Assembly (NCBI GenBank): GCA_937870795.1 | Contig: CALMWS010000315.1 | Location: forward strand, 1-54,948 | Direction: 5' to 3' | From: an uncultured Bacteroidota bacterium | GTDB taxonomy: Bacteria; Bacteroidota; Bacteroidia; Chitinophagales; Saprospiraceae | DNA: 54,948 nucleotides | The notes under the pieces: model-generated | The model's input: the letters and a program-made list of their open reading frames with translations, nothing else | Databases searched by the model: none | What the model was told of the DNA's origin: nothing | Translations under genes and position numbers: made by a program | In this document: positions 33,756 through 54,948 of the stretch, in pieces | How positions within the stretch are numbered: the first letter of the stretch is position 1 | How the letters are laid out: every line of letters begins with the position of its first letter

Positions 33756-34805
33756 TTATTCAACTTTAATGAACTTACGGTTGATCACCTGATCACCCAC
33801 ATTGAATTGTAAAGAATAAAATCCAGGAGCAATGTCTTTAACAGAAAGCTCTTGAGGATTGCTGGTGTCAACTCTTACTTTTCTTACCAACTTACCCTGA
33901 ACATCCAACAGATCCATCACAATCACCTGGCCTTTAATGCCATTGAAGTTAAGGTTCAACTTGTCTGAAGTTGGATTGGGATAGATTGAAAAATCAGTAA
34001 CATCAAAACAGTTGTAATCATGAGAAATGGTCTCAGATACTTTGAAAGTGCCGTCCAAATCCAATTCTACCAACCTGTAATAGTAGGTACCATTTGATTT
34101 GAAGTTTACATCCTCAAATGAATACTCACGAACTACGGAAGAATTCTGATTGCTGCTAATGAAAGCTACTTTTTCAAACTCTTTTCCGTCCAAAGATCTT
34201 TCAACATTAAAACCTTTGCTGTTGATTTCAGATTCTGTTGTCCAGTTTAACTGAATGCCTTCGCAGTCAATTGATCTGGTTTTGAAACCGGAAAGTTTCA
34301 CTGGAAGTGGTGCTGTTACACTTAAACTTGCACTTTCGCCATCATTGTCACCTGAATTGGTATTGGAACAATTTAGAGCATCAGAAGCATTGCTTGAGGT
34401 AACACCATTGGAAACCAATGAGAATCCAGTCACATTCACTGTGATCAATCCACCATCACCATCTGCAAGCGTAACGATGTTGTTACCATACAATGCATTG
34501 TCAATAGCTGAATATACCCAGGTAAAACTTGGACCGAAACCTGTCATAGCTACAGCTGCAGCACCACCTGTTGGCTTATAAGAACCAGAAGCAGGAAACG
34601 AAATGATCACGTCCAAACAGCCAGGAGCCAATTCACCGCCAGCGCTTGTTTCATTGATTGAAATAAAGGTGAGGAAATTGGTTGTTCCACCAACGGGTAT
34701 AGATGTTGTGGAAAAACCAGCAGAACTCACGATAAAGTCTACCTGCGAGTAGCCATTAAAGGCTACTGCAGTTAGTGTTATTAACAATAAGAATATTTTC
34801 TTCAT
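33756..34805 (-). CDS. Secreted protein with T9SS type A sorting domain, partner gene of the giant mosaic protein
   Basis: This 349-residue precursor has a signal peptide ending NGYSQ. The N-terminal region (about 22-165) is a beta-rich domain, perhaps DUF11-like, with VGGTTNFLTFISINETS. A Fn3-like domain follows (LSGFKTRSIDCEGIQLNWTTESE to YYYRLVELDLDG, about 170-260). The C-terminal T9SS type A domain begins FSIYPNPTSDKLNL and ends GFYSLQFNVG...FIKVE. It begins 11 bp after the stop of the roughly 3.6-kilo-residue giant on the same strand, so cotranscription is likely. It may present, anchor or help secrete the giant, but this is inference. Confidence 0.85.
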   Translation of the reverse strand: MKKIFLLLITLTAVAFNGYSQVDFIVSSAGFSTTSIPVGGTTNFLTFISINETSAGGELAPGCLDVIISFPASGSYKPTGGAAAVAMTGFGPSFTWVYSAIDNALYGNNIVTLADGDGGLITVNVTGFSLVSNGVTSSNASDALNCSNTNSGDNDGESASLSVTAPLPVKLSGFKTRSIDCEGIQLNWTTESEINSKGFNVERSLDGKEFEKVAFISSNQNSSVVREYSFEDVNFKSNGTYYYRLVELDLDGTFKVSETISHDYNCFDVTDFSIYPNPTSDKLNLNFNGIKGQVIVMDLLDVQGKLVRKVRVDTSNPQELSVKDIAPGFYSLQFNVGDQVINRKFIKVE

Positions 34806-37800: not shown

Positions 37801-40800
37801 GGTTGTCGGTTGCTGTGTTTCCACATGCATCGGTAACCACCCATGTTCTTGTTACTACATAATTATAGTAAGTACAATCTGCAGGATCACTTCCCTGTGT
37901 AGAAGAATTGCTATGGCTGTAAGTTACAGGCGCATTACAATTGTCATCACCGGTAGGCGCACCCAATGCCAATGCTGTAGAATCTGCATCACAATTGATG
38001 AGCGTATCCAAAGCATAGGTTACAAAAGTTGGAGCAATGCTATCTTTAACGATGATCAATTGCTCGCATGTATTAGAATTATTGTAGATATCTACAACGC
38101 TATATGTTCTGATCAATGTGTCTTTGTTAACGCATTCAGGAGTACCTGTACTCAAAGTTGAAACGTGAACTACACTTGAAAGGTCAACTGTACAATTGTC
38201 ATTCAACACACCACCTGCATTGATAAAGGCTACAAAACCTACCAAAGGAGCTGAAATATCCTCAATACAAGCAATTCTTTCAGTTGGAGGACACAGAATA
38301 ACAGGAGCAATTGTATCGATTACTGTTACGTCAAAAGTACAAGCCACGGTATCAGGACCTGGGTTTGTATAAGTAACTGTATAGGTGCCGATTGCAAAGT
38401 TTGCCTGTTGAACTCCGGCTGCATAGCCCTCATTAACAGCACCTCCCAAATCAACATCCAATTCGATTACATTACAATTGTCGGTAATAGTTGGAGCAAC
38501 CCATGCAAAAGAAATGTCACATTCCAAAACATACAATGTTGTATCAGAAGGACAATTTACAACTTGTGGGGCCCCAGGACCTGTAACTCCAACAGTTGCA
38601 GAAGCAGTAGTAGTACATCCATTGTTATCAGTAACAGTTACTGTGTAGGTGCCTGCAGCCAAACCTGTAGCAATTGCACTTGTCTGGCCATTGCTCCATG
38701 CATAAGTATACTGAGGTGTTCCACCTGTTGCATTTACAGTGGCAGTACCGTCTTCAGCAGTTGTACAACTTTCATTTGTAGATGAGGTAGTTGCTGCAAG
38801 AGCTGTAGGTTGACCCACAACGACTGCTACAGAATCTCTACAAGAATGAGAATCTTCTACAACAAACATGTAGGTACCTGCAGGGGCAGAGAATACCGGT
38901 GAGGCTTGACCACCGTTAGGGAAGTCAATGAAGAAGGTATATCCAGAAGTTCCACCGCTGGCAAAGCCGTTGATGGTTCCATTTCCACCAAAACAAGCTG
39001 CATTTACAGCAGTCGCAGAAACTTGCAGTGCTGTTGGTTCAGTGATTGTGAATTGTGTTGAAGCAACACAACCGTTATCATCTTCTACATCTACCGTATA
39101 TGTATCCGCTGGTAATTGATCAAAGTAGAAACCAAAGTCGGTTTGTGTCAATGTCAAAGCAGATCCTGTAAGAGTGACATTGTATCCACCTACAAGAGGT
39201 GTGCCGCCAGTAATGGTAGCAAAAGCAGTACCTGTACTGTCTCCGTTACAAAGTACATTGGTTACGATAAGTCCCTGGATTTGGATAGCAGAAGGTTCAC
39301 CAACTACCAATAATGTATCGATGGTACAACCAGCTGCATCTGTAGCAGTAACATGGTAAGTGCCAGCTGTCAGTCCACTGGTAGCAGATGGATTTCCGTC
39401 TCCATCTTCCCAGCTCAAGGTCACCATTGGGGTACCGCCGGAAACAGTAGCTGAAACTGAACCGTCATTACCACCGTTGCAAGACGCATCGGTTGCTGTA
39501 GCGCTTGACCAGGCCATTGCAGGGCTGACAGTAATTGTCTTGCTTGCAGTATTTGAACAACCCTCAACATCTGTTACGGTAACAGTATAGGTGGTTGTGG
39601 CATTCACATTTACCGTGATGGCAGCAGTATTTGCCATTGTTGACCATGAGTAAGTACCACCACCTGATGCAATAAGTGTTACAGCATCACCTGCACAAAC
39701 CAACTCATCAGAAGCTGAAATGGTCGCAATTGGTAGTGGATTTACGATTACTGTTGCAGACGTACTGTTTGAACATCCGTTTGCATCTGTAACTACTACA
39801 CTGTAGTTGGTGTTTACAGCAGGGCTAACAGTAATGGAAGATGTATTCGCCATGGTTGACCACAAATAGCTGGTTCCACCACTTGCAGTTAGTGTAGTTG
39901 ACTCTCCAGCACAGATTTCCAGGTCACCAGAAATACCGGCAGTTGGTAGAGTCCAGGTATTGAGTGCAAAACTTGCTACAGCGTAGCAGCCATTTACATC
40001 TTCTACCCTAACCCATACTACCTGATTGTCTACACCTGTATAAGTAGCAGCATTGGCGATATCACCTGTGCCGGCAGCAGCATCACTTTGTGAAACGTGG
40101 AAGGTAATGGTTCCTGAAGTGGTAGGAACTGCATTATTTAAGTTGAAAGTACCTACGCCACCACCTTGAACACTTTCACAAGCATTGAGTGCCAAAGGCT
40201 CTCCTACGGCAAAAGTTGGATTTGGATTCACGTTGATGGTAGCAGACTCACTATCTGTACATCCGTTTGCATCAGTTACTGTTACAGTATAAGATGTTGT
40301 GGATGCAGGAGAAACTGTAATTGAAGGAGTAACAGCCATATTTGACCAAGCATAAGAGCTTCCTCCTGTTGCAGTCAATGTAGCAGATGCTCCGTTGCAA
40401 ATGGTTGCAGAAGAAGGAGTAATTACTGCAACTGGAAGTGGGTTAACGATTACGGTTACACTTTCAGAATCGGTACATCCGTTGCCATCGGTAACTACAA
40501 CAGTATACGTTGTATTAGCGGCCGGGCTTACTGTGATTGCTTGTGTAATTGCCATATTTGACCAAGAGTAAGTACCACCACCTGACGCGGTCAAGGTAGT
40601 AGACTCTCCTGCACAAAGTACAAGGTCACCAGAGATAGAGGCAACTGGAAGTGGGTTGACCGTTAGGATTATGCTTTGAACCGCATAACAGCCATTAACG
40701 CCTGTTAATCTTACCCAGATTTCCTGGCCATTGTTGCCTGTATAGGTTGTAGGATTTGGTATAGCACCGATACCTGCATTAGCGTCAGATGCACTCACAT

Positions 40801-43800
40801 GGTAAGTGATACTTCCAGTGGTTGTAGGAACACTGTTTGACAAGTTAAAGATGCCTTGCTGTCCGTTGGCTACTGTAGCACAAGCTGCCAGATCCAAAGG
40901 CTCGCTGCCTGCAAAAGTAGGTACTGGGTTAACGGTAAATGTGAATGAAGTGCTATCTGCACATCCTTCCGCATTAATTACTTTCAATTTTACTGTCAAT
41001 GCATTTGTATTATCAGTCTGAGCTGTCAATACTGCATTTTGTGTATTGGCATTTGCCAAAGAAGCATTTCCCGGAGATGCACTAACAATTGACCATTCAT
41101 ATGTAAATGTGGATGGCGGCAAGTTGGTTGCATTACCTAAGAGTGTTCTTTGTTCACCTTGACAAAGTGTGTTGTCACCATTTGGATTCAAGGTTACAAG
41201 AGGCTTATTATTTACTACAACACTCACTACAAAAGGAGTTCCTGCGCAACCAAAAGTACTGGTTGGAGTCACTGTATAATTTACAGTAAGCGGGAAGTTA
41301 AAGATATTTGTTACGTTATCAGTCAAGGTAGCACCTGATCCAGTATCGCCCACTGCTGCACCAACAGCAAAAGGAGCTGGAGTCATTGAAGTAATCTGCC
41401 AGTTGAATGTAACAGGCTCAAGATCGTCATCTGCTGGATTAGGATATGCACCCAGATTTGTCAAATTTTCATTTAAGTCGAAGTTGAAAGTAACACCTGA
41501 ACAAGCTGTTTCTGTACTACCTGCTCCTACTGGTTCAGGATAAACAGGCACTTTCACCTGGAAGGTATCACCAGCACAAGAACCGGTAGCTACAGAAGTG
41601 ATAGGAATGATCCTATACCTTACTGTATCGTGCAGACTGGTTACATTGTTAAAGTTATCGTTGTTGATGATTGCTCTGTGAATTCCTGCAAAACCGCCAG
41701 TATTGGTAAGGTTAAACGGATAGTTTCCTGCTGTTGATGAATTGATTGTTCCTAAAGGCAGTGCTAATGGGTCAGCAGCGCCATTTACCGTAATGGTTCC
41801 AGGCACTGTAAGGCTTGTCCATCTGTAGGTTGCCACTGCAACAGGAGTATTAACAGGGCTGGTAGGCAATGTACTGGAAGCACCAACATTTACATCTGAA
41901 CAAGCAGCTGCTGAAGCGAAGCTATTTACAACTGGTTCTGGACGGATGGTAGCTGTCACTGTAAAAGTAGCTCCTACACAACCGTCAGCTGAAACAGGTT
42001 CAACTGTATAGGTTACCGTTTGAGTAGCATTAGTTTTATTTTCCCAAACATCATTTGCCAAAGCATTTGCAGCCATTCCCATTGTACCAGCTGTTTCCAC
42101 GGTTGCACGTGGAGTAAGACTGCCTGGGTTCGCAATTGAAATCAGGTTATAAGTTAAAACCCCAAGTCCTGGATCTCCATTGTAGTTAACCCCAAATGCT
42201 ACATCTGAACAAATTGGTCCTACGGTCTGATTAGCAACAACTGGTTCTGGATTTACAGTAATTGTAACTGTAAATGGATTACCTAAACAGCCTGCACCAC
42301 TTACTGGAACAACCGTATAGATTACATTAACCGGTGCATCTGTTGTATTGGTCCATGCATCATCTGCAATTACATTATTTGCAAAGCCTGTGCCTGTTGC
42401 AGGCATTCCAGCGCTTGCAGTCAAACCATTGGTAGTAATGTTGGTAATGTTGTACGTTACAGCGGAAGGGCCATCAACATCATCAGCCAGGATAAGACCA
42501 TTGGCAACGTCACTACAAACTGTAGTGGATTGTGGCCCAACAACTGGTTCTGGATTGATTGGCACTGTAAGCGTAAATGTTGAACCCTGACAGCCAGAAG
42601 CTGCGTTAAAGGTTGAAATGGTATAAACCACATTTACAACTGCATTGGTGATATTTGTCAAAGTTTCAGACAAGGTAGCAGAAGTTCCAGGACCAGGATT
42701 GTATGCGCCACCTGTAGCTGCACCATAATTGGCAGTATAGCTGAAATTTGATGGAACCATGTTATCAATATATGACTGGAGATTGAAGCTAAAATTCACA
42801 TCAGAACAAACAGCTGTTTCTGTTACATTGTCAGCCAATGGATCCAAAGGCATAATTCTAAAAGTAACTGAACATGTAGAAGTATTAAGAGCACAATCGG
42901 TCACAGTCAATGTTCTGGTGGATAAGTTATTAACACCATCTGTATCACCTGAATCATCACAGTTAAAGAATGTATCATCAAGACTGAAGGTAACTGCTAC
43001 TCCACAATTGTCTGAAGATCCGGCACCAAGTGCATTTACTTCGGCAGGAGACAATGTATATTGTCCCATAGCATTAAGAGTTACAGTGACATTGCCCATT
43101 GGACAAACAGCAGTTGGAGCAATGTTGTCGTCAACCGTATATGTATAGACCCATTGGTGGGAATTACCTTCGCAGTCAGTATAAGTCCATGTATAGGTTC
43201 TTGTGCCTTCACATGCTGGCTCACCACTATCAACAGGTCCTGTTGGCGTAAGAGTGACACCACAATTGTCCATTACTGTTGGTGGAGTAGGAATTACATC
43301 TGAGTCATCATGACAAGCTACGGTTGAACCTGTATTTGCAGGCATGATAAAGTCCTCATATTCGATGGTATAAGTGTAAACCCATGGGTGTGTGTTTCCT
43401 TCACAATCAGTATAAGTCCATGTATAGGTTCTTGTGCCTTCGCAAGCAGGTTTTGGTGAAACTACCGGGCCTGTTGGTGTCAAAGTTACACCACAATTGT
43501 CCATCACAGTTGGTGGCACTGGCACAACATCAGTATCATTTGGACAATCCACAGTTAAACTTCCGTTTGAAGGAACTGTAAAATCCAAGTATTCAATTGT
43601 GTAAGTATAAACCCAAGGGTGGGAATTTCCTTCGCAATCAGTATAAGTCCATGTATAAGTTCTTGTACCTTCACAAGTTGGCTTTGGTGAAACTACCGGG
43701 CCTGTTGGTGTCAAAGTTACACCACAATTATCCATTACAGTTGGTGGAACTGGTACAACATCTGTATCATTTGGACATGCTACAGTAGATGAACCACCGG

Positions 43801-45724
43801 CAGGAACAGAGAAATCAAGATATTCAATGGTATAAGTATAAACCCAGTTATGGGTATTGCCCTCACAATCTGTGTAGGTCCATGTGTATGTTCTGGTTCC
43901 TTCACATGATGGTTTTGGAGAAACGACCGGACCTGTTGGTGTCAATGTTACACCACAATTATCCATCACAGTTGGTGGCACTGGCACAACATCCGTATTG
44001 TTTGGACATGCTACGGTAGATGAACCATCTGCAGGAAGCATGAAGTCGTTATACTCTATTGTATATGTATAAACCCAATCGTGAGTATTGCCCTCACAAT
44101 CGGTGTAAGTCCAAGTATAGGTTCTTGTGCCTTCACAAGAAGGTTTTGCTGAAACAACCGGACCTGTTGGTGTCAATGTTACACCACAATTGTCCATCAC
44201 AGTTGGTGGTACTGGCGCAACATCCGTATCATTTGGACATGCTACAGTCGAAGAACCATTTGCAGGAACTGAAAAGTCATTGTATTCTACAGTATAGGTA
44301 TAAACCCAATCGTGGGTATTGCCTTCACAATCTGTATATGTATATGTATAAGTTCTATCTCCCTCACACGTTGGAATTACACTTACAACAGGTGCACCAG
44401 GTGTCAGAATATTTCCACAATTATCCATAACAGTTGGAAGCGTTGGTGCCACATTGGTTGCGGCTGGGCAAGCAACAGTAGAACCAGCATTAGCCGGCAT
44501 GGTGAAATCCTGGTACTCAACAGTATAAGTATACACCCATGTAACCGGTGGATTAAAACCGTCTGACCAACTGTATGTATGAGTCACAGTACCTTCGCAA
44601 GCTGGAGCAGCTGAGATCATAATTGTTGGAACTATGGGTGAAGTACAGTTGTCATTAACTGTAGGTACCTGTGATGGAGCTACCAGAGCATCTGCAGGAC
44701 AAGCCACTGTTGAAGATGTTGGATACATATTGGCAACCATTACAGGTGGTTCATTGTCTACAACGGTAACTGTAAAGCTGCAGGTAGATGTATTGGAAGC
44801 AAGGTCGGTAGCTCGATAGGTTACTGTTGAAACACCTACATTTACGAAGGTACCAATTGCAGGACCTGCGATTTGTACAACATTCACACCCGGACAGTTA
44901 TCAGAAACGGTAAAGGCACTCCACTGTACTGTGGCGCCACAGTCACCTGCAATGTTATCGTCTCCACCACTAGATTGAACAGTAATATTTGGAGGGCAAT
45001 TCAAAATAGGTGGATCATTATCACTAACTGTTACATTATAACTGCAAGTAGTGGTATTACCTGCGCCATCGCTTACTGTGTATTCAACCGCATTGACACC
45101 TGCCGGCAAAACCACAGGGCTACCTACAGTATATCCAGGAAGTGCATTCACAGATATTGTAGTTATCGTAGGTGTTCCACAATTGTCAGAAGAAGAGGCC
45201 AAAGCCTGGATGTTAAATGGTGAGGTACACTGGTTGGCCGGATTGGTAAATATCGTTGTATTTGCCGGACAAGCAATAGTTGGTGGTGTAATATCAGGAT
45301 TACATGGATCCTTGACATTAACAACTACATTGTTACCAACCTTAGACCAAGACCAAACCAAATTAACCATTGGGTTCATGCCCGCAATGGTTGGAAAGTT
45401 TGTGCTGGTGAAATTTCCAGACAATCCGGTTGAAGTCAATACTACATAGTCATTGCCAGCAGCCGTATTTGGTTTCACAAAACCCGGAAGGTCAAGTATC
45501 TCCAAAGTACCGCCCAAGATGGCAGTGCCCGTTACCTGCAACTGGTCATGGCCGGTGCAAGGCGTAGTGTTAATCACTTGAATGCTAAGAGTACCTCCGC
45601 CTGACTGGTCGAAGCTACCAACCGTCATACAACCCACCTGGGCGTTGACTTTTGCACTGGGAAGTACAAATAGGAATACAGCCAACAAAAGTGGGGCTGA
45701 TAAACCATGTAGTATTCTTTTCAT
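34817..45724 (-). CDS. Giant secreted mosaic protein (HYR, PKD-like, Ig-like and SprB repeats)
   Basis: This is about 3635 residues from ATG 45724, chosen because it starts a canonical signal peptide (to VNAQ). ATG 45772 would add 16 residues. Map in approximate residues: beta-strand module (30-145); HYR (146-335); seven 77-residue repeats of STVACPNDTDVVP/NCGVTLTPTGP type (336-865); HYR-like (865-960); PKD-like NPEPVV repeats (960-1515); Ig-like NPLPVASISGDLVLCAGES repeats (1515-2075); SprB repeats (2065-2380); HYR (2385-2650); an 80-residue NGNTATC array (2645-3300); HYR; and a C-terminal beta-sandwich ending MKVSSLSIN. No T9SS type A or B domain is recognisable. Likely a fibrous surface adhesin. 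Confidence 0.85.
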   Translation of the reverse strand: MKRILHGLSAPLLLAVFLFVLPSAKVNAQVGCMTVGSFDQSGGGTLSIQVINTTPCTGHDQLQVTGTAILGGTLEILDLPGFVKPNTAAGNDYVVLTSTGLSGNFTSTNFPTIAGMNPMVNLVWSWSKVGNNVVVNVKDPCNPDITPPTIACPANTTIFTNPANQCTSPFNIQALASSSDNCGTPTITTISVNALPGYTVGSPVVLPAGVNAVEYTVSDGAGNTTTCSYNVTVSDNDPPILNCPPNITVQSSGGDDNIAGDCGATVQWSAFTVSDNCPGVNVVQIAGPAIGTFVNVGVSTVTYRATDLASNTSTCSFTVTVVDNEPPVMVANMYPTSSTVACPADALVAPSQVPTVNDNCTSPIVPTIMISAAPACEGTVTHTYSWSDGFNPPVTWVYTYTVEYQDFTMPANAGSTVACPAATNVAPTLPTVMDNCGNILTPGAPVVSVIPTCEGDRTYTYTYTDCEGNTHDWVYTYTVEYNDFSVPANGSSTVACPNDTDVAPVPPTVMDNCGVTLTPTGPVVSAKPSCEGTRTYTWTYTDCEGNTHDWVYTYTIEYNDFMLPADGSSTVACPNNTDVVPVPPTVMDNCGVTLTPTGPVVSPKPSCEGTRTYTWTYTDCEGNTHNWVYTYTIEYLDFSVPAGGSSTVACPNDTDVVPVPPTVMDNCGVTLTPTGPVVSPKPTCEGTRTYTWTYTDCEGNSHPWVYTYTIEYLDFTVPSNGSLTVDCPNDTDVVPVPPTVMDNCGVTLTPTGPVVSPKPACEGTRTYTWTYTDCEGNTHPWVYTYTIEYEDFIMPANTGSTVACHDDSDVIPTPPTVMDNCGVTLTPTGPVDSGEPACEGTRTYTWTYTDCEGNSHQWVYTYTVDDNIAPTAVCPMGNVTVTLNAMGQYTLSPAEVNALGAGSSDNCGVAVTFSLDDTFFNCDDSGDTDGVNNLSTRTLTVTDCALNTSTCSVTFRIMPLDPLADNVTETAVCSDVNFSFNLQSYIDNMVPSNFSYTANYGAATGGAYNPGPGTSATLSETLTNITNAVVNVVYTISTFNAASGCQGSTFTLTVPINPEPVVGPQSTTVCSDVANGLILADDVDGPSAVTYNITNITTNGLTASAGMPATGTGFANNVIADDAWTNTTDAPVNVIYTVVPVSGAGCLGNPFTVTITVNPEPVVANQTVGPICSDVAFGVNYNGDPGLGVLTYNLISIANPGSLTPRATVETAGTMGMAANALANDVWENKTNATQTVTYTVEPVSADGCVGATFTVTATIRPEPVVNSFASAAACSDVNVGASSTLPTSPVNTPVAVATYRWTSLTVPGTITVNGAADPLALPLGTINSSTAGNYPFNLTNTGGFAGIHRAIINNDNFNNVTSLHDTVRYRIIPITSVATGSCAGDTFQVKVPVYPEPVGAGSTETACSGVTFNFDLNENLTNLGAYPNPADDDLEPVTFNWQITSMTPAPFAVGAAVGDTGSGATLTDNVTNIFNFPLTVNYTVTPTSTFGCAGTPFVVSVVVNNKPLVTLNPNGDNTLCQGEQRTLLGNATNLPPSTFTYEWSIVSASPGNASLANANTQNAVLTAQTDNTNALTVKLKVINAEGCADSTSFTFTVNPVPTFAGSEPLDLAACATVANGQQGIFNLSNSVPTTTGSITYHVSASDANAGIGAIPNPTTYTGNNGQEIWVRLTGVNGCYAVQSIILTVNPLPVASISGDLVLCAGESTTLTASGGGTYSWSNMAITQAITVSPAANTTYTVVVTDGNGCTDSESVTVIVNPLPVAVITPSSATICNGASATLTATGGSSYAWSNMAVTPSITVSPASTTSYTVTVTDANGCTDSESATINVNPNPTFAVGEPLALNACESVQGGGVGTFNLNNAVPTTSGTITFHVSQSDAAAGTGDIANAATYTGVDNQVVWVRVEDVNGCYAVASFALNTWTLPTAGISGDLEICAGESTTLTASGGTSYLWSTMANTSSITVSPAVNTNYSVVVTDANGCSNSTSATVIVNPLPIATISASDELVCAGDAVTLIASGGGTYSWSTMANTAAITVNVNATTTYTVTVTDVEGCSNTASKTITVSPAMAWSSATATDASCNGGNDGSVSATVSGGTPMVTLSWEDGDGNPSATSGLTAGTYHVTATDAAGCTIDTLLVVGEPSAIQIQGLIVTNVLCNGDSTGTAFATITGGTPLVGGYNVTLTGSALTLTQTDFGFYFDQLPADTYTVDVEDDNGCVASTQFTITEPTALQVSATAVNAACFGGNGTINGFASGGTSGYTFFIDFPNGGQASPVFSAPAGTYMFVVEDSHSCRDSVAVVVGQPTALAATTSSTNESCTTAEDGTATVNATGGTPQYTYAWSNGQTSAIATGLAAGTYTVTVTDNNGCTTTASATVGVTGPGAPQVVNCPSDTTLYVLECDISFAWVAPTITDNCNVIELDVDLGGAVNEGYAAGVQQANFAIGTYTVTYTNPGPDTVACTFDVTVIDTIAPVILCPPTERIACIEDISAPLVGFVAFINAGGVLNDNCTVDLSSVVHVSTLSTGTPECVNKDTLIRTYSVVDIYNNSNTCEQLIIVKDSIAPTFVTYALDTLINCDADSTALALGAPTGDDNCNAPVTYSHSNSSTQGSDPADCTYYNYVVTRTWVVTDACGNTATDNQIITVQDTTAPTPVCVNTSVNLLPSGMVSIVPADVNGTSSDNCMPSGLLNLTATPTTFTCGEVGPNNVVLTVTDACGNSATCVAVVTVVDTEPPVAICNAAIDVYLDAAGMATIDTTDTNNGSWDNCAIDTMTLSVYNFNCSNVAVPVTVQMVVFDVYGNSDTCYTVVTVIDTIAPIAVCTTTTLYLDAMGVATLDAQDLDGGSSDACGGLTFSANPSNFTCANVGSNSSVLTVTDINGNSSTCVGTVMVFDTIDPVAICQNITIQLNSGGTASIVGSQLNNGSSDACGIASYSANPNTFTCANVGPNTVVMTVTDVNGNTATCTSIVTVQDLVPPVALCQNITIQLDVTGNASIVGSQLNNGSSDACGIASYSANPNTFTCANVGPNTVVMTVTDVNGNTATCTSIVTVQDLVPPVALCKDITIQLNAGGTASITGSQLNNGSSDACGIASYSANPNTFNCSNVGPNTVVMTVTDVNGNTSTCTSIVTVQDLVPPVAICQNVTVNLDVNGNGSTTAAAVNNGSNDACGIDTMYLNIYDFDCSDVGSNTVVLTVVDVNGNSATCSATVTVIDAIAPNVICSDTTIYLNANGLASVTAVQLDGGSTDACGGLTYAASQTSFDCGDIGANNVILTVTDVNGNSATCIAIVTVEDTLAPVFSQCPGNSTLNSDPNGCYQNYQIVLDTIFDNCTAPGAIAVQVKGRVVANNGVIPMTISPLGVGGYTITATFGLPVGNNRITVIATDAEGNVDSCQYFVQVNDIWAPIISNCPADVTVNVNPTLCTAQAFWPVPIPSDNCSGVMMTTQNNNQYFPGYAFPLGTTNVVYTATDASGNTTTCSFNVNVVGTCTPPAPDLSPEHTTGSTSYAPGQTKNVVVRIRNLSANPTTAPITFFVQKMDPNFSVFVDPNATNATVGINNFSVMNSDWVITEQATRWRFVSKPGVVINGNTTNFVAIQLTATGNQGATANLTTTVVAGTGGGETPTNNNMKVSSLSIN
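35830..37790 (-). repeat. Array of about eight 240-bp units (80 residues) inside the giant gene
   Basis: Equivalent positions recur every 240 bases at 35851, 36091, 36331, 36571, 36811, 37051, 37291 and about 37537, on the GTAAC/GTTAC segment that encodes the start of each unit. Three central units are nearly identical in DNA. Each encodes one HYR-like domain (NGNTATC, ASYSANPNTFTCANVG, SNNGSSDACG-type motifs). Exact register and high identity suggest recent duplication and a recombination-prone, length-variable region. Confidence 0.85.
43130..44715 (-). repeat. Seven 231-bp tandem units (77 residues) inside the giant gene
   Basis: The segment encoding STVACPNDTD recurs with a 231-base period (for example near 43773, 44004 and 44235). 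The DNA is close to identical in several units; the outer ones are more diverged. Each protein unit has NCGVTLTPTGP, CEGTRTYTWTYTDCEG and WVYTYTIEY segments with three Cys. Copy number variation by homologous recombination is likely. Confidence 0.85.
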
Positions 45725-45924
45725 TATTAAAGGTTTTTTAAATGCCTGATTATGTAATTGAATCTTGGTCATATAACTAAGAGATTATATACTTATTTGC
45801 AACAATCAAACCACACAGACAAGTGGCATTGAAGCCGGAAGATTGGGCTTCTTTACAACAGGTTCTTAAAGCAGGTTTTCTCGTCATTGGTTTTTTATTC
45901 AACAAATCATTTAAATACACTATC

Positions 45925-46700: not shown

Positions 46701-46743
46701 AAACTTAAGACTCTAAGGCTTGTAAGCTTAGAGTCTTAAGTTT
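46701..46743. terminator. Strong hairpin downstream of the beta-helix gene
   Basis: The arms AAACTTAAGACTCTAAG (46701-46717) and CTTAGAGTCTTAAGTTT (46727-46743) pair perfectly over 17 bp around a nine-base loop. It lies 65-107 bases beyond the stop of the minus-strand beta-helix gene. The stem is AT-rich and the T tract after it is short (TTT), so it might be an intrinsic terminator or an mRNA 3'-end stabiliser. Confidence 0.65.
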
Positions 46744-46807: not shown

Positions 46808-49800
46808 TTAGTTACCCGGGCTCACAACACCCATTGGTGAATTGACAAAATTGCCATCAAAGAACCCTGTGCCCTTATAAATTCCATTGTTATTGTAAGT
46901 GCCGCCATCCAGTTTCAAGACTCCATTATTAAACACAGTGCCTATATTGGTTAAGGAAGTTCCTGAATTAACTACTAATATTTTACCCATTGCTATAGTG
47001 AGAGAACTTGCGTTTACATTTCCCGCAACAATGTGAATTTCATGTAAGTTTGCAATACTAGCATCCAGAGCAGTCTGCAAATCGCAATAATTAACCATGG
47101 TCGTTGTATTCACAATGGCATATCCAGCTGAACATCCATTGCAAGAATTGGCAACTGGCTGAAATCCAGAAGTAGCCGGCATGTCATCTGTTCCATTTGT
47201 AAGGAAAAACTCATAACCAACAACTCCAACCATTAGTGAGGGAACATTGGAAATTGTACCCCACCAATTACAATCAGCGTTGATTGTATTTCCGCCAGTA
47301 TTGTTGGCTCCAAATGCTAAAGCATTTCCGTTCATTACAATACTGTTGTTGTGCGCTTCAATTGTATTTGCTCCCGGAATGTTACCCGTTATAAAAGCGT
47401 AAACATTGTGTGTGCTACTTGCCGGGTGTGTAATAAAATTATTATTGGCATTGACAATTGCACCCCGCTGGGCGAGAATGGTAAAGCCTTCATTGCCTCC
47501 AATACCCCAAGGCGCATTTCCATTATCGGTAAAAGTACAGGCATCAATATTTGCTGTGACATAACCCCTTGAATCAACACCTCGGTTATGGTTGTCAGAA
47601 ATTACACATTGTGTAATATTTACAGTCTGTACAGAAATTCCACCTGTACTGAAGTCACCTAAATAAACCGCTGCTCCAGATGCACTTATACTCCCAGTAC
47701 CGATGATAGTATCATTACTGACGCTTATGAGCAATCCGGTCGACGGAATAGTTGAACCTGCTGTAAATGTATACACTCCTGCATGGAAATTGTAAGCTGG
47801 CAATGCTGGATAGTTACCAGTAAACCCACTCATGTGCATGCCTGTAATATTCAAATTAGAAGGAGCAAGCGGACCTCCCAGTGTATTTACGACAGCTATA
47901 CCTTGTAACACACCTGATATGGTTCCATTTGAAATTACTCCGGGGGCTAAAGTAGCATTACCGTAAACCACATAACCATAAAATCCATCTGTCACTGAAT
48001 TGTTATTTAAAGTGACCCCAATACTTCCGGTTACGCCAGCCAATAGTACACCCATGGTTGGGGTCGGGCCTGCTGCAGTTTGGGTAGTAAGGTCAATACA
48101 ATTATTTTCGATGGTCAATGTATTTCCCGGAGATGTGGTTATCCCCGCAACATTAACGCCGATCGCGTCAGCTTCGATCTTATTATTTATAATGGTCAAG
48201 TTGGTATAAGCGGATGCCGCAACAGCAGTACTTCCTACTATTTCCAATCCGTTTATTGTTACTCCATTGGATGCAATGGTAATGGCTGTTCCATTTCCAC
48301 CATCTATTGTGGTTTCGGCTACCCTGGAAGGACTACATCCATCTACTCCCTGATTGGCACCTAAAAGGGTTAATGCCTTACTAATTGTTATATTTTCATT
48401 GAATGTTCCTGCACTAATCACCAAAGTATGTCCATTAAGTGTATTTATATCATCAATAGCAGATTGGAGAGTGCAAAATGTTTCAAGTGTGGTGGTATTG
48501 GTAACATTCGAAGAGCATCTCGTTAAAACCACATCATTGCCATCTCCACCAGTGTAGTTTATTTCAAAGATATAAGGCCCTGAATTTACATAAGTCCCCT
48601 GAGCAAAAACACCGCTTACCAAATCCATACCATCATTGTCGATGATTAAAAATTGTTGTCCTACAGGTGGAGTGTACATTCCAACATTTACAATGAGGTT
48701 AGCGCCTCCAAGTGTTACTGTTCCTGTGACCTGGACCTGATCAAACAAAGAGCAAGCTGTGTTGCCTTCAATTTCAATTTCAAGCGCATCACCGGAATTT
48801 AAAATCATCCCTGTTACACCAACGCAGCCGGGGCTTGATCCCGGAACAATCGTCAGATCCTTTCCTGTAGCATCTATCGGTTCTGGGTAAGTACCACTTT
48901 CAATATTGAGTTTATCGCCAGTCATCGCTGCTGCAGTATTGCCTCTTGCAATTGTTTCATCAGAAAGTCCTGTACCGGGTGTTGATACATAAAGATTAGT
49001 GCCATTAATTCTAATGACTCCTGATGAAAGATTGTCGAGCGCCCCATACATTTTATCAGTAATTCTGAAGTAATTGCTTTCATCATAAGTATCTGAACTA
49101 ACATTAATAGAATTTGCACCTAAATTTTCTATAAAATAGGAATCACCCGCAAACTGATTGCTTCCTCCACTGGTAATAACAGAACCTGCTGCCACCTGAA
49201 TATCTCTATTGTTATCTACCCCTCCATCAAACACATTGCCAGAGAATTGAGCCTTGCCATTTGACTGAACTAAAGCTGCAATATAGTTTCTAGTTAATGT
49301 ATTACCTGAAACAACAACCGGATTTTGAGCTGAAAAATTACTTCCTGTTATCCACTGCATACCCAGATTTGCCCCATTCACAATATTGTTGGCGTAGGTC
49401 ACAGTTGAACCTGGTCCTGAATGCGAAGTCACCCTGAATCCCCTCTGCAGATTGAGGGCTGGATCATTTCCGGGAGCCAGATTATTAAACTGGTTACCTG
49501 AAATATTTATATTACTGGTATGTGCATGACCATTGTCCCAGATACCAATGATAACCTGGGGATTGGCAGATTGAGCGTTGATAACATTAATCACATTGCC
49601 TGTTATATTTAAGCCATCATATATGCCTCCTCCGCTTGTATTGGATTGCATGCCGATACTTGATGAAAAGTTGGCCCCGTTGCTGATTCCGTCGCCTGCT
49701 ATATTAAATACATTATTGGAAATGGTTTGATTGGTTCCAAAAGCATAGTGCAAGCCAATGTTTTGATTCACATCTGCAGGTGCAACCGTAGCGTTCAAAT

Positions 49801-52800
49801 CTGTTGCCATATTGAATACATTGTTATTGATGGCTGTATTGCTGAATGCATCAGTGCCCCCTGCTCCAAAAAACATACCTATCGACAAATCGAATTGATT
49901 AAAGGTAAGATTAGAAATGGTCCATCCTTGATTGTCACCTCCATCAAAATAAAATACACCTTCCAAATTGGCACCCGCCAGGTCACCTGGACCATCAATG
50001 GATGCGGATCCCAGCCCTCCAGGAGCAGTGAACGTCACGTTGTTAATGTTTGCTGGCATAATCAAAGAATAGTCATCTCCTGTGCTGACAGTATTATCAT
50101 TACCCAAAGCCCATGCAGCTGCGGCATTGGCTTCAACCCAATCAAAACTGCCGAACAAATTCACCTGCTTTCCATTACTCAGTAATTCAACTGCATTTCT
50201 TAACCTTGTGTAATCATTGTTGACAGCAGAGGGTGTTGCAATATCAGTTACATGGATATGATTGGCTTTTACTGTAACAAAACCATATATCTGATTATCA
50301 ATTTTATGACTGATCAAATCTTCAATTGCAAAAAGTTGGGCATCAGAAGCTCCGGTAGAATTGACTCCATTGTATATATTACCACCTGTTGCATTAATAT
50401 TATTTATTCCTCCATAGCCCTGATCAACACCGGCTGAGTTAAAGGTCCGTTGAATGCTGATTGCCTGTTCTGTAGCTGAGAGATTATTACCTGTCAATAC
50501 AATATCGGCTGCGGCATCGTGCACAAATCCAGTTTTAACACCAGAAACGGTATTGTTTGAAAACTGCATTGCCGTTGATGTAGAAGAATTGCCCATGTAC
50601 TGGAGGCCATACACTGCCCACCAATTCATTGGATCCGAAATATTATTTCCGTTAATGATATTGTTCGTAACCACTCCCCCATTTGATGAGGCTCTTATGG
50701 TTTCTGCTGCTATACCCTGCCATCTAACGGGCCCAGTAGGATTAGCGGGTGGTGCAATGGCATTTATGGTATTGCCAGAAATAGTCCATGCAGTAGCATT
50801 GTTTTCTGCATAATTGTAATAAATACCTGTTCTCCAAACATTGAAGGTATTGCCTGATACCACAGGGGCAATCACATTTTGTTGCACCTGATAGGGTTGG
50901 ATCTGAATACCTGATCGTACACTTGAAATCGTATTGTTGGTAATGGCACCTGTTGTTCCCTGGATATACATGCCATAGCCATAACCAATTTGGGTGAGGT
51001 CATGTATGTGTTCAAATTTATTTTGCGTTACTATTATATCCTTATAATGAGGAGATGCCAATCCGCCTCCGGCAAAAAAGCCCATGGTTGTTGCGTTGTC
51101 GATTACATTGTTTCTAAATGTTACATTGCTGCCTTCTGAATAAACACATTGGCCTTTTTCCAAATTTAAACCCGCGTATGAATAACCACTAATACCCGGA
51201 TTATCTCCACTCACTCTAAAACCATCAAAAGTTACATTGTTGGCTGCAATGTAAACTACCTCTGTCCATGGATCTCCTGGCATCAGATTGACTTCAGGCA
51301 CAATTAATGCCTCTGGTCCGCGAACTGCATTGCCGTTGACCCCATAATTAGGTCCTCTTAGTTCTACAGATTTATTGATAATCACATGTTCTGCATAAGT
51401 ACCAGCACTCACTGTAATGATATCACCATTCTGGGTAAGAGGATCATCAATGGCATCCTGAATGGTGCAATAATATAAAGTCGTATTGGTATTATGAACC
51501 GAATTTCCTGATAAACAGCCACTACATGAACCCGCTACTGGCTGAAAGCCTGTAGTCACCATATCATCATCAGAGCCATCAACCAAATAAGCTTGAAAAT
51601 CAATATTTGCTGAACCAGGTCCCAGGATATCTGGTTGTCCTCCTGGTGGAACAGCTGAACCACCGTAGGCAACGGGTATTTGACCCGCATAGCCAGGTTC
51701 TGTGCTATTGGCTGTACTTACAACAGGCAAGGTGTTTCCAAACCAATTGCATTCAAAATTTTTCAGGTTTGTAGTTCCGGGAGCCGGAAGGCTGCCACCA
51801 GCCTGTCTGTCCACTACTTGTCCATACCAATTACCAAAAATGGTGTTGTCATTAAAGTTGCTGTTTAACGCCGATTGAACTGGCACGTTAGTTCCCCCGC
51901 TGGCATCCAGAAATAGTACACCCACGGTCCAGTTATCTGAAATTTCATTTTCGATGAGTTGGGTATTATCGGTTTGATTCCTAAAAAGCAATCCGGTTCT
52001 GTTGAATGTAATTATATTGTTGTGGATATTGTTACCCGTACTATTATTAATATCAATCCCTGTTCGATTACCCGTTATTTTACAATTTCTTATTTCTGCA
52101 CTCACGGTAAGGCCTTGGATTGCTACTCCACCTCCATTGTTTATATTGGGGTTATTCCAATCCGTTGTATTGTTGCCTTCCCTTGTTATTGTTACCCCGT
52201 CAACTACTACTCCGGTCGTGCCCACTATAACAGTGGCTCCTTGTCCACCAATAGGGCCGCTTATGGTGGTAGAATTGTATCCTGTTCCCAAAACAGTAAC
52301 GCCTTTCGTTATGTTCACATCTTCAACATAAGTTGTGGCAACCAAAGACAATGTGTGGCCCGCCAAGGTCTGTGCATCATTGATCGCAGCTTGTATGGAA
52401 CAAAATGCCTCACTCGTATTGGTATTGGTTACAAGACCTGTACCAACACCTATGTTTCTATAATTATCAGTAAAAGCAGAAACGGTGTTGCCGGTGATTA
52501 CATTATTACATGTCATAGGTGAGTTACCCCTGCCAAAATACAAATCAGCTACATTGGATTGATCTGCGTCATTCGGATAATTAGATGGATTCTGCTGTTG
52601 CAAAATTCCTACATCACAAGCTGATACATTGTTACCGGTTACTGAATGATTAATTCCTTCTACTACTATACCAAAGCCTTCGCTGGTTGAAGACTGGGTC
52701 CAGCCCGAAACATTGTTTCCTGTTATGGTTACTCCATTGGGAACATCGACATTTCCAACTAAAACACTTCTTCTTAATATTGCAATACCTGCCCTATCGC

Positions 52801-53776
52801 GCAAATCGGCATTGGCTGAAATCATGTTAACCGTATTTCCTGATACTGTTACACCTCCGGCAGGGTTTTTTATTTCGATGCCAAATCTTCCTCCACCTGA
52901 AATCATGTTATTTGATATCAGGTTGCTGCCTATGGTAGCGTTTAGTCCGTTAATCCCAAGGCCATTGTCTCCAGTACCTATATCCAAAGTATTGTTGGAT
53001 ATTGTAACTGCTGATGCTGTTCCATCCTGTAATTCTATGCCACAACAACTGTTATTGATCACGGTATTGCCTGAAATATTAATATTGGTTTTAAAGCCAT
53101 TCCAGATTACAACACCTCTTGCAGAGCCACCATTGTTTTGAACCATACAATTGGTAATGGAAACATTGTCTACAGGACCATTGGCATAGAAACCGGATGC
53201 TGTAGGATTATTGAGCATGGCAACATTGGTAACAGTTAAATCATCATTACCACCGACACCATAAATACCTGCGTGGCTATTGCCAGAAGAGCCTGTGAAA
53301 TCCTGAACAGTTAAATTACGAATTGTGACATTGGTCACATTTACATTAATCACTATTCCTGAACCGGGTGAAGGCAGCCCTGTGCCATCAATTACATAGA
53401 GGGTCTTATCTGAGGTAGCACCCTGTAATGTGAGGCTTTTGGTAATTACCACATTTTCTGAGTAAGAGCCAGCGTTGAGTTGAAGAATATCACCAGGATT
53501 AGCATTATTAATGGCATCCTGTATTGTAGGATGAGAAGTTAACTGGGTTAAATTGTCCACGTTAGGCATCAGCGTCATGGCTAATGGCGCAGACTTACTA
53601 TTGAATTCCAGAATTTCGGAATTAACAACGCTACTTCCTGCCGAGAGGTTAAACGCCATAGCAATAAAAAATAAATGAAAAAAAATTCCATTCATCGAAG
53701 ATAAAGGCCAAAATTTTGTGCCGGAGTTTGAATTTAGCCTATAAAAAGGTGCATTTTCAAAAGATTCAATTTTCAT
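46808..53776 (-). CDS. Giant secreted parallel beta-helix protein
   Basis: This protein has 2322 residues. ATG 53776 leads into a hydrophobic segment (NGIFFHLFFIAMAFNLSA); ATG 53695 would give a more standard signal peptide. It is dominated by right-handed parallel beta-helix rungs (ITNNTIS, VSGNTVN and NVTIRN-like patterns). These are arranged as five blocks, each opening with a C.IQ.AI......G..L.V..GTY.E.V.I.K...L.G module at about residues 83, 459, 769, 1769 and 2232. A beta-strand module (SPGCVGVTG ... DQVQVTGTVTLGG) sits near 1655-1755. It ends VLKLDGGTYNNNGIYKG...GVVSPGN with no recognisable T9SS sorting domain. Polysaccharide or surface binding is possible. Confidence 0.82.
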   Translation of the reverse strand: MKIESFENAPFYRLNSNSGTKFWPLSSMNGIFFHLFFIAMAFNLSAGSSVVNSEILEFNSKSAPLAMTLMPNVDNLTQLTSHPTIQDAINNANPGDILQLNAGSYSENVVITKSLTLQGATSDKTLYVIDGTGLPSPGSGIVINVNVTNVTIRNLTVQDFTGSSGNSHAGIYGVGGNDDLTVTNVAMLNNPTASGFYANGPVDNVSITNCMVQNNGGSARGVVIWNGFKTNINISGNTVINNSCCGIELQDGTASAVTISNNTLDIGTGDNGLGINGLNATIGSNLISNNMISGGGRFGIEIKNPAGGVTVSGNTVNMISANADLRDRAGIAILRRSVLVGNVDVPNGVTITGNNVSGWTQSSTSEGFGIVVEGINHSVTGNNVSACDVGILQQQNPSNYPNDADQSNVADLYFGRGNSPMTCNNVITGNTVSAFTDNYRNIGVGTGLVTNTNTSEAFCSIQAAINDAQTLAGHTLSLVATTYVEDVNITKGVTVLGTGYNSTTISGPIGGQGATVIVGTTGVVVDGVTITREGNNTTDWNNPNINNGGGVAIQGLTVSAEIRNCKITGNRTGIDINNSTGNNIHNNIITFNRTGLLFRNQTDNTQLIENEISDNWTVGVLFLDASGGTNVPVQSALNSNFNDNTIFGNWYGQVVDRQAGGSLPAPGTTNLKNFECNWFGNTLPVVSTANSTEPGYAGQIPVAYGGSAVPPGGQPDILGPGSANIDFQAYLVDGSDDDMVTTGFQPVAGSCSGCLSGNSVHNTNTTLYYCTIQDAIDDPLTQNGDIITVSAGTYAEHVIINKSVELRGPNYGVNGNAVRGPEALIVPEVNLMPGDPWTEVVYIAANNVTFDGFRVSGDNPGISGYSYAGLNLEKGQCVYSEGSNVTFRNNVIDNATTMGFFAGGGLASPHYKDIIVTQNKFEHIHDLTQIGYGYGMYIQGTTGAITNNTISSVRSGIQIQPYQVQQNVIAPVVSGNTFNVWRTGIYYNYAENNATAWTISGNTINAIAPPANPTGPVRWQGIAAETIRASSNGGVVTNNIINGNNISDPMNWWAVYGLQYMGNSSTSTAMQFSNNTVSGVKTGFVHDAAADIVLTGNNLSATEQAISIQRTFNSAGVDQGYGGINNINATGGNIYNGVNSTGASDAQLFAIEDLISHKIDNQIYGFVTVKANHIHVTDIATPSAVNNDYTRLRNAVELLSNGKQVNLFGSFDWVEANAAAAWALGNDNTVSTGDDYSLIMPANINNVTFTAPGGLGSASIDGPGDLAGANLEGVFYFDGGDNQGWTISNLTFNQFDLSIGMFFGAGGTDAFSNTAINNNVFNMATDLNATVAPADVNQNIGLHYAFGTNQTISNNVFNIAGDGISNGANFSSSIGMQSNTSGGGIYDGLNITGNVINVINAQSANPQVIIGIWDNGHAHTSNINISGNQFNNLAPGNDPALNLQRGFRVTSHSGPGSTVTYANNIVNGANLGMQWITGSNFSAQNPVVVSGNTLTRNYIAALVQSNGKAQFSGNVFDGGVDNNRDIQVAAGSVITSGGSNQFAGDSYFIENLGANSINVSSDTYDESNYFRITDKMYGALDNLSSGVIRINGTNLYVSTPGTGLSDETIARGNTAAAMTGDKLNIESGTYPEPIDATGKDLTIVPGSSPGCVGVTGMILNSGDALEIEIEGNTACSLFDQVQVTGTVTLGGANLIVNVGMYTPPVGQQFLIIDNDGMDLVSGVFAQGTYVNSGPYIFEINYTGGDGNDVVLTRCSSNVTNTTTLETFCTLQSAIDDINTLNGHTLVISAGTFNENITISKALTLLGANQGVDGCSPSRVAETTIDGGNGTAITIASNGVTINGLEIVGSTAVAASAYTNLTIINNKIEADAIGVNVAGITTSPGNTLTIENNCIDLTTQTAAGPTPTMGVLLAGVTGSIGVTLNNNSVTDGFYGYVVYGNATLAPGVISNGTISGVLQGIAVVNTLGGPLAPSNLNITGMHMSGFTGNYPALPAYNFHAGVYTFTAGSTIPSTGLLISVSNDTIIGTGSISASGAAVYLGDFSTGGISVQTVNITQCVISDNHNRGVDSRGYVTANIDACTFTDNGNAPWGIGGNEGFTILAQRGAIVNANNNFITHPASSTHNVYAFITGNIPGANTIEAHNNSIVMNGNALAFGANNTGGNTINADCNWWGTISNVPSLMVGVVGYEFFLTNGTDDMPATSGFQPVANSCNGCSAGYAIVNTTTMVNYCDLQTALDASIANLHEIHIVAGNVNASSLTIAMGKILVVNSGTSLTNIGTVFNNGVLKLDGGTYNNNGIYKGTGFFDGNFVNSPMGVVSPGN

Positions 53777-54127
53777 TTCAGTTGCTTTTCATCATTACAT
53801 AATAAAAAATTGCAAGCAACAATGTCAGATATATTTATACATATAGATTTTTTAACTTTATATAACTTTTGTTATATAATGAACGAATATATGTTACAAC
53901 AAACAAAAGACATTAACTTACAATATAATTCAAATATACAAAATCCATGCATTTCTGTAATATTTTATTCTGAATGTAGCTAATAATGTATATGTTGCGG
54001 TATATTTTGTTTAACCGGCATAGCTCCAATTAACTTAAAACTTAAAAAGTTATTAAAAATATTTCTGAAAATAAATAATTAATTGTTCAGTTATATTTTA
54101 TTTCTTATGCATGGCAAAACTTATGAT
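53777..54127. other. 351-bp AT-rich spacer between giant genes
   Basis: The spacer has no convincing gene. It contains a GTTGCTT/AAGCAAC pairing (53781-53787 with 53814-53820) next to the start of the beta-helix gene, a TATATTTG -7 match at 53931-53938 (minus), and an AT-rich remainder. No clear terminator for the right-edge gene was seen. Confidence 0.6.
53931..53938 (-). promoter_or_regulatory. Candidate -7 element (TATATTTG) for the beta-helix gene
   Basis: TATATTTG on the minus strand lies 155 bases before ATG 53776. The context is very AT-rich and no -33 element was found, so support is limited to the consensus match and its position. Confidence 0.3.
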
Positions 54128-54948
54128 TTAAATACCACAAGGCCCAGGCTTTACTGTACCGCCACTGCCATTTATAAAATTACCATTAAACATTCCCTGA
54201 CCGCCATACACCCCACTATTGATGTATGTTCCTCCATTGAGATTGATGGTACCGTAATTGCAAATCATTCCAGCGTTTGTTACCACTGCTCCATTGTGTA
54301 TTTCAAGCACAACTCCGGCTGGAATTTCAAAAGATTCAATCAAATTATTACCGTAAACATGGATGGTATCTCCTAAAACGACACCAGCCAAAATAGCCGC
54401 ATTGATGGACGGGTAACATATGCCGTTTAAAACAACAGGCGCACCAGCATTGGATATTACTACGTTTTGAGGTACAACAATGGAATTGCCATTACCATCA
54501 ATAAATGTCCAGTTAACTGTATAATTTCCAATAACGTCATAGTAAACAGGGTCAGTTGTTGTGCCCGTAATGGAACCAGCACAATTGTCTGTTGTCGAAG
54601 GTGCAGATAAGGAAACTGGCACCAGGCAATCACTCATCACTGTTGATAAAACCGGTGTGCTTGGAGGTGTTATGTCATCAACCAGAAAACTTTGGTTGAT
54701 ACTTGAAATATTGCCATTACCATCATCAAATGACCATGTTACAATCGTCGTCCCCTGTGTAGTTATAGGAAAAACAGTCGTGGTTGTGGCTGAAATCATT
54801 CCTGCACATGCATCGTTGGCAACCGGTATCACAGGAGTACCACCACACTCAGGTAATGTCACAGTATTCAAAACTGGCAAAACAGGTGAAATGGTGTCTT
54901 GTACACTCACTGTAGCTGCACAAGTGGCTGCATTACCATTTACATCTG
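54128..54948 (-). CDS. C-terminal part of a giant HYR-repeat protein (N-terminus beyond the window)
   Basis: The frame is open to the window edge. Its upstream residues (DVNGNAATCAATVSVQDT) continue an HYR-type repeat, so the GTG at 54910 is not the start. Two HYR-like domains are visible (VLPVLNTVTLPECGG and PPSTPVLSTVMSDCLV type). A beta-helix-like module (CYPSINAAILAGVVLGDTIHVYGN) follows, and the tail VLEIHNGAVVTNAG...INLNGGTYINSGVYGGQG...GTVKPGPCGI. This tail aligns closely with the end of the neighbouring beta-helix protein. No T9SS sorting domain is present. Confidence 0.8.
   Translation of the reverse strand, partial: DVNGNAATCAATVSVQDTISPVLPVLNTVTLPECGGTPVIPVANDACAGMISATTTTVFPITTQGTTIVTWSFDDGNGNISSINQSFLVDDITPPSTPVLSTVMSDCLVPVSLSAPSTTDNCAGSITGTTTDPVYYDVIGNYTVNWTFIDGNGNSIVVPQNVVISNAGAPVVLNGICYPSINAAILAGVVLGDTIHVYGNNLIESFEIPAGVVLEIHNGAVVTNAGMICNYGTINLNGGTYINSGVYGGQGMFNGNFINGSGGTVKPGPCGI

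Follow-up and report, generated by a model that had tools for sequence, protein, structure and literature searches.

Analysis of a 54,948 bp stretch of DNA from an uncultured member of the Saprospiraceae (assembly GCA_937870795.1, contig CALMWS010000315.1; the whole stretch is called the window) revealed that two giant proteins, a beta-helix protein and a HYR protein, share a C-terminal tail, here named the PGN tail or class-1 tail. Many proteins that look exported carry this tail in three of the genus's six species; it is a genuine mobile C-terminal domain and a candidate sorting or anchoring signal. It appears to be the front half of a module of surface proteins, severed precisely at a PG join, while in other genera the module seems to continue past the PG into a second half, usually followed by a type A signal of the type IX secretion system (T9SS). 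The preliminary description of the window had noted the tail on two proteins; it is not limited to these and the observation is larger than first noted.

The two tails of the window

The beta-helix protein (46808–53776, minus strand) has 2322 amino acids, a PF13229 match, a hydrophobic N-terminal segment and a PGN tail with no T9SS C-terminal domain (CTD). Its tail (46811–47089, minus strand), a C-terminal solenoid identified by sequence comparison, profile match and an AlphaFold2 (AF2) model, ends in ...NSPMGVVSPGN directly before the stop codon. The HYR protein gene at the right edge is represented by its 3' part (54128–54948, minus strand; its 5' end lies beyond the window) with a HYR_4C match, and its tail (54131–54418, minus strand), found by sequence comparison and profile match, ends in ...GGTVKPGPCGI. 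When aligned, the two tails share 39% identity (E 8.5e-15), which bears out the earlier claim of a common tail, and both stop just past the PG, at the module boundary as had been proposed. Neither tail reaches a Pfam or NCBIfam cut-off, those of T9SS types A and B included, and the few weak matches below the cut-offs are chance matches; the tails thus lack a T9SS sorting domain, as first described. The internal segment reported to pass such a PG into a further module was located in the beta-helix protein itself (48515–49015, minus strand). This segment, IVPGSSPGCVGVTG...DQVQVTGTVTLGG, runs through the PG join (PG at about 48839–48844) into SSPGCVGVTG...DQVQVTGTVTLGG and DQVQVTG.

Terminal copies in the genus

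A profile of the tail (A1; 22 rows, 91 positions) was used on six genomes of the genus, one per species, and matches were taken at E ≤0.05. This gave 41 rows, of which 38 are genuine tails: 16 in the window's own genome (G000, 460 contigs) and 9 and 13 in the relatives G001 and G002, with no such tail at this threshold in the other three species, G004 and G005 among them. The three rows left out are an internal beta-helix stretch (G004:C104), a match to the profile start only in a protein that stops early without PG (G005:C234) and a weak match that continues for 312 residues (G002:C47:8241). Single-sequence searches of G000 returned 15 and 17 rows, from which C219 and C298 were dropped as weak (C298 ends in the class-2 solenoid described below). 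A scripted survey of ends and hairpins, reduced from 42 rows to the same number of 38 tails by removal of four unrelated open reading frames (ORFs), re-derived that every tail ends 1–4 residues past the PG, one of them having TG in its place. The end is PGN in 26 of the 38 and PGD, PGK, PGE, PGL, TGN, PGPCGI, PGVCTF or PGNSN in the remainder, and each of the 13 genuine G000 copies beyond the window stops one residue past the PG. The tails are mostly about 90–130 residues in size, and in 29 of 38 cases the profile is matched from position 1 or 2. Since nothing follows the tail in these 38 copies, none of them has a CTD behind it.

The bodies that carry the tail are diverse and include HYR repeats, right-handed beta-helices, receptor-L/leucine-rich, PKD-containing and (by eye) Gly-rich proteins, further proteins with Calx-beta or kelch matches below the cut-off, and others without any family. 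The N-termini were surveyed, without a signal-peptide predictor, for 10 of the 16 G000 proteins (contig ends interrupt five others, and the C247 start was left unread). In all 10, hydrophobicity peaks at the N-terminus, above every peak from residue 80 onwards, and at the probable cleavage site of the signal-peptide-like start 8 of the 10 have, by eye, Gln preceded by a small residue. Gln after the cleavage site is described for Bacteroidetes signal peptides as the Q-rule (PMC5837995).

Stop codons and downstream regions

All three stop codons are in use among the 38 tails. Orthologues keep the position of the stop, and the orthologue of the beta-helix gene in G002 (G002:C78), which is of equal length, shares its end but uses another stop codon. 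Position-by-position, ungapped comparison of orthologous tail pairs gave more synonymous than non-synonymous changes in nine pairs out of ten, the exception being C246 and its G002 counterpart. Perfect hairpins of at least 7 bp were found within 130 nt downstream of 14 of the 38 tails and in 32 of 400 random stretches, a control that is mostly coding, so that AT-rich intergenic DNA may inflate the count for the tails. The stem is 10 bp or longer behind ten of the 38 tails, it is AT-rich and 7–8 bp long in four of the 14 hairpins, and at least four T in the eight bases after the hairpin occur in 7 of the 14 compared with 7/400 in the control. In the window a perfect 17-bp hairpin (46701–46743), terminator-like but without a T run, is located 64 nt downstream of the stop codon of the beta-helix gene. 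A search of the DNA behind the 38 tails, up to 1.2 kb or as far as the contig reaches, recovered the missing half of the module only within the next genes of the window and of G002:C78; two further hits to the half-module (E 0.17 and 0.28) lie on the opposite strand. Truncation is unlikely because the stops are conserved, the changes are mostly synonymous and hairpins lie downstream, and simple truncation or misassembly was rejected on these grounds together with the lack of a downstream remnant.

The module outside the genus

With a limit of 15 scored candidates per genome, 63 of 298 family genomes, those of the genus included, matched the profile; in the phylum, with a limit of 11, it was 15 of 395 genomes. 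Outside the genus 46 distinct rows, 41 from the family run and 5 from the phylum run, reach at least position 85 of the 91. Many of these matches are weak. Among the 31 rows examined, 29 continue for at least 94 residues, often as SPG...DQLxVTG...LGG beyond the PG, and two stop, in G238 after 8 residues and in G265 after 12 (a class-2 end). A protein of G099 also stops but matches profile positions 1–75 only. Pfam searches with ten continuing proteins gave Por_Secre_tail at E ≤0.001 in eight, six of them over the curated cut-off, and nothing in two. NCBIfam searches with five gave type A in L075, L081, L090 and L174 but not in L082. With L090 and L174, which were new in the NCBIfam set, 10 of the 12 continuing proteins tested end in T9SS type A.

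The preliminary description had offered the repeated edge of a modular family as one reading of the tail, and this holds outside the genus, where the same stretch runs on. Its proposed search with a tail profile did yield terminal copies, within the genus, while elsewhere the stretch mostly continues. Homologues usually followed by a CTD had been named as a sign that the genes are simply truncated; such homologues are indeed the rule outside the clade, but the conclusion fails inside it.

A strict DNA pattern was scanned against about 85,000 species, a set that possibly leaves out the window's own genome, and gave 19 stretches, judged by eye to hold four terminal tails, one Planctomycetota copy that continues and 14 unrelated stretches. 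Three of the four tails are from CALMSX01 and one from a Saprospiraceae metagenome-assembled genome (MAG), JAGNSQ01, and they are identical to G002 and G001 tails, respectively. One query found no class-1 relative in viral contigs. In a contig of a Planctomycetota MAG (L109:7498-7998) a YKGTGTF...VAPGSSAGT module continues into a DLLDITG half, and the intact module may therefore occur outside Bacteroidota. Two proteins of G258 (L196, L098) end shortly after a beta-helix stretch like YxSLxxAIxAA or GTYxE, apparently with no CTD.

Different ends on one type of body

A search with the body of the C246 protein covered 199 genomes of the family and gave matches in six, at seven places. It ends in a PGN tail in G000, in G002 and in G001:C63. 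The same type of body is followed in G117, after some 200 residues, by a terminal T9SS type A domain (37.1 bits against a cut-off of 23), and this protein also has a match below the cut-off to a 'choice-of-anchor' domain, which the C246 protein lacks. An IPTL-CTERM match over the cut-off is located near the end of the G167 protein; the G090 protein has one that narrowly misses the cut-off and has some 90 residues after it. The tail thus occupies the place of other sorting ends on one type of body. The corresponding comparisons with the C215 body, which gave only G000, G002 and a hit of 28% identity, and with the C301 repeats, whose inspected copies in G004 and G005 leave the contig ends, were uninformative. 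The C246-type proteins of G004 end in ...CAAISVSGP and ...CAGISVMGPR before the stop codon, with no known signal by eye.

Fold of the tail and a second class of terminal solenoids

An AF2 model of a window tail, made from an alignment of six sequences, reached pLDDT 87.3 and pTM 0.83 and contains one short helix and 12 strands, ten of which follow each other after the helix. The predicted fold is read as a beta-solenoid; this class is assigned from the model and the pattern of repeats, as the best match of the model in PDB, using Foldseek, has an E-value of 1.6.

Terminal solenoids without PGN also occur in other genera, in G099 (on a body that by eye is leucine-rich repeat-like, as in C427) and in G238. 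A second type, called class 2 (NGGAIxNNGxLxL...KAFTN-like), was matched by its profile in 39 of 150 family genomes at E ≤1e-5. When 30 of its loci were examined, the protein was found to end no more than 60 residues past the match in 14, and no more than 25 past it in 13 of these; at the remaining loci it continues, in many cases with longer beta-helix repeats, or passes out of the stretch or contig. Class-2 ends without a T9SS CTD behind them were seen in several genera (L219-L226, L228, L229, L231, L240 and L246). No class-2 tail was found in plasmid records with one query.

Other features of the window

The next large gene downstream of the beta-helix gene encodes a giant of 3651 amino acids with HYR, PKD and SprB repeats (34817–45772, minus strand). 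Directly after a signal-peptide-like start it opens with the back half of the module (VGCMTVGSFDQSGGGTLSIQV...HDQLQVTGTAILGG), this N-terminal half-module (VGCMTV...HDQLQVTGTAILGG; 45293–45643, minus strand) being complementary to the tails and kept in G002. No T9SS signal was found in its last ~150 residues (34820–35419, minus strand); the scan matched only part of a HYR domain, upstream of them. The giant is thus a further large protein that looks exported and whose end is unclassified. Ordinary type A ends, said earlier to be present on other exported proteins, were confirmed by family scan in four proteins among seven other stretches or proteins of the window, with CTDs at 2214–2396 and 33768–33986 on the minus strand and at 1216–1455 and 20783–20992 on the plus strand.

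Interpretation

The tail resembles a sorting or anchoring signal because it recurs at the exact ends of different bodies, has no sorting end behind it and, on one type of body, takes the place of sorting ends known from relatives. These same observations, with all 38 copies in the genus terminal, agree with the earlier suggestion of a distinct anchoring or export signal, although a signalling role is here proposed from sequence. The chances that the solenoid tail has taken over the role of such a C-terminal signal appear to us evenly balanced. If so, tail-bearing proteins would be exported by Sec and signal peptidase I (Sec/SPI) and the tail would fold in the periplasm. An export or anchoring machine of the outer membrane, most likely the T9SS translocon with a shuttle of its own, would then recognise the tail and bring the body to the surface without an immunoglobulin (Ig)-like CTD. 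We tentatively suggest, as a proposal that falls somewhat short of probable, that the tails could form an unrecognised solenoid class of sorting or anchoring signals in Saprospiraceae-type bacteria. Such a class would have arisen when a known adhesin module was cut at the PG joint, and as a cassette it would have reached at least 38 proteins of three genomes, with the second solenoid class in use in parallel in several genera of the family.

Several results weigh against a sorting role. Known T9SS signals are abundant in G000, with at least 150 rows of type A (150 of 203 candidates scored) and 21 of type B, 6 of these over the cut-off, and the tail class is present in only three of six species of the genus. 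Nine of the 38 tails match only the later part of the profile, seven of them just its last 30–48 positions, and the length of the tail therefore varies. The exchange of ends rests on one body, which in G004 occurs in two copies (L122, L126) with yet another end. In 14 stretches of G000, surveyed by crude ORF calling, there was no candidate shuttle and no neighbour family in more than two stretches, once three neighbours that group with the tail proteins are set aside. The Foldseek search gave no PDB match with E below 1.

Since the class is patchy and known T9SS signals are abundant in the same genome, the tail may instead be a passive structural cap. At the end of surface or periplasmic proteins it would then serve for folding or capping, or as an adhesive tip; it would have been distributed by domain shuffling and have no part in sorting, the proteins taking another route or staying in the periplasm. 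The fold resembles ordinary beta-helix edges, starts such as 'YxTLQAAIDAAxxGDTI' look like common beta-helix N-caps, similar solenoids occur inside other proteins, and three homologues outside the genus weakly match the passenger of the autotransporter EprS, far below the cut-off. We regard this explanation as possible but rather doubtful; it leaves unexplained why no T9SS or other sorting end stands behind any of the 38 copies, why different bodies share one exact stop, and why the ends are exchanged on the C246 type of body.

The presence of complementary halves in adjacent genes, the beta-helix gene ending with the front half and the next large gene opening with the back half, suggests docking, in which the C-terminal half would bind a complementary N-terminal half (SPG/DQLQVTG) of another protein and join giants head to tail on the surface. 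The gene pair is kept in G002 (G002:C78), yet a back half is found downstream in only two of the 38 tail loci, within stretches of up to 1.2 kb. A giant of G004, a genome in which no PGN tail was found, seems by eye to carry the back half at its N-terminus, and the AF2 model of the whole module across the PG failed (pLDDT 33.5). Docking of this kind is improbable. Hardly credible, and already contradicted, is the loss of a downstream T9SS signal through gene truncation, frameshift or misassembly: the homologous stretch does usually continue outside the genus, with type A matches in eight of ten proteins by Pfam (six over the cut-off) and two more by NCBIfam, and the G000 assembly is in 460 pieces, but all 38 copies in three genomes end at one point using three stop codons, the lost half has left no remnant save in two conserved next genes, and the hairpins, kept stops and synonymous excess speak against it.

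Exported proteins of Bacteroidota are commonly predicted by type A and type B T9SS signals. Should the PGN tail be a signal, this kind of prediction would overlook groups of large Saprospiraceae surface proteins, the range of shapes readable by the T9SS or a parallel machine would be wider than the Ig-like fold, and a sorting domain could arise from the edge of an adhesin module. One type of body with different ends in relatives offers a ready test of the sorting role. Saprospiraceae are described as abundant, mostly uncultured and common in wastewater plants (PMC9304909).

Comparison with known systems

In the open-access literature searched no description was found of a C-terminal solenoid or beta-helix sorting domain or of other unclassified T9SS ends. 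Membership of the tail in a known Pfam or NCBIfam family was rejected, as only chance matches below the cut-offs were obtained, and by sequence it fits none of the type A, type B and CTERM families.

Proteins with a type A CTD are secreted through SprA/PorV and cleaved by PorU. Like this domain, the tail is located at the extreme C-terminus of unrelated Bacteroidota proteins with signal-peptide-like starts (38 of 38 terminal), and it is found on the same kind of body as type A in the relative G117. It differs in that no match to type A (PF18962, TIGR04183) was obtained for the window tails, their proteins or three further class-1-like tails, and its AF2 model, compared without a computed superposition, is unlike the seven-stranded Ig-like beta-sandwich reported for the type A CTD (PMC10202324, PMC12618676).

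With type B CTDs, which use PorP/SprF shuttles, the tail shares a terminal position on large surface adhesins. The tails have no NCBIfam match to type B (TIGR04131), and the 14 G000 stretches contain no recurrent shuttle-like neighbour, as judged without a PorP/SprF profile. Nor is there an NCBIfam match to type C (the C-terminal region of ChiA of F. johnsoniae), a model that may not be in the NCBIfam library. IPTL-CTERM is comparable as another kind of C-terminal end on the C246 type of body (G167), but unlike this and other CTERM anchors the tail has, by sequence, neither a transmembrane segment nor a basic end. For exosortase and rhombosortase CTERM signals, the 10 G000 proteins examined have no stretch from residue 80 onwards that equals the N-terminal one in hydrophobicity, and the tails are polar by sequence.

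The beta-helix of autotransporter passengers has a joint in the style of 'PGNSPG', and the tail shows the same style of solenoid, PG and SPG. It is unlike these type V proteins in stopping at the PG, with no C-terminal beta-barrel translocator. The class-2 solenoid differs from the tail in sequence and has no PGN, but both are small solenoid-like C-terminal domains without a CTD.

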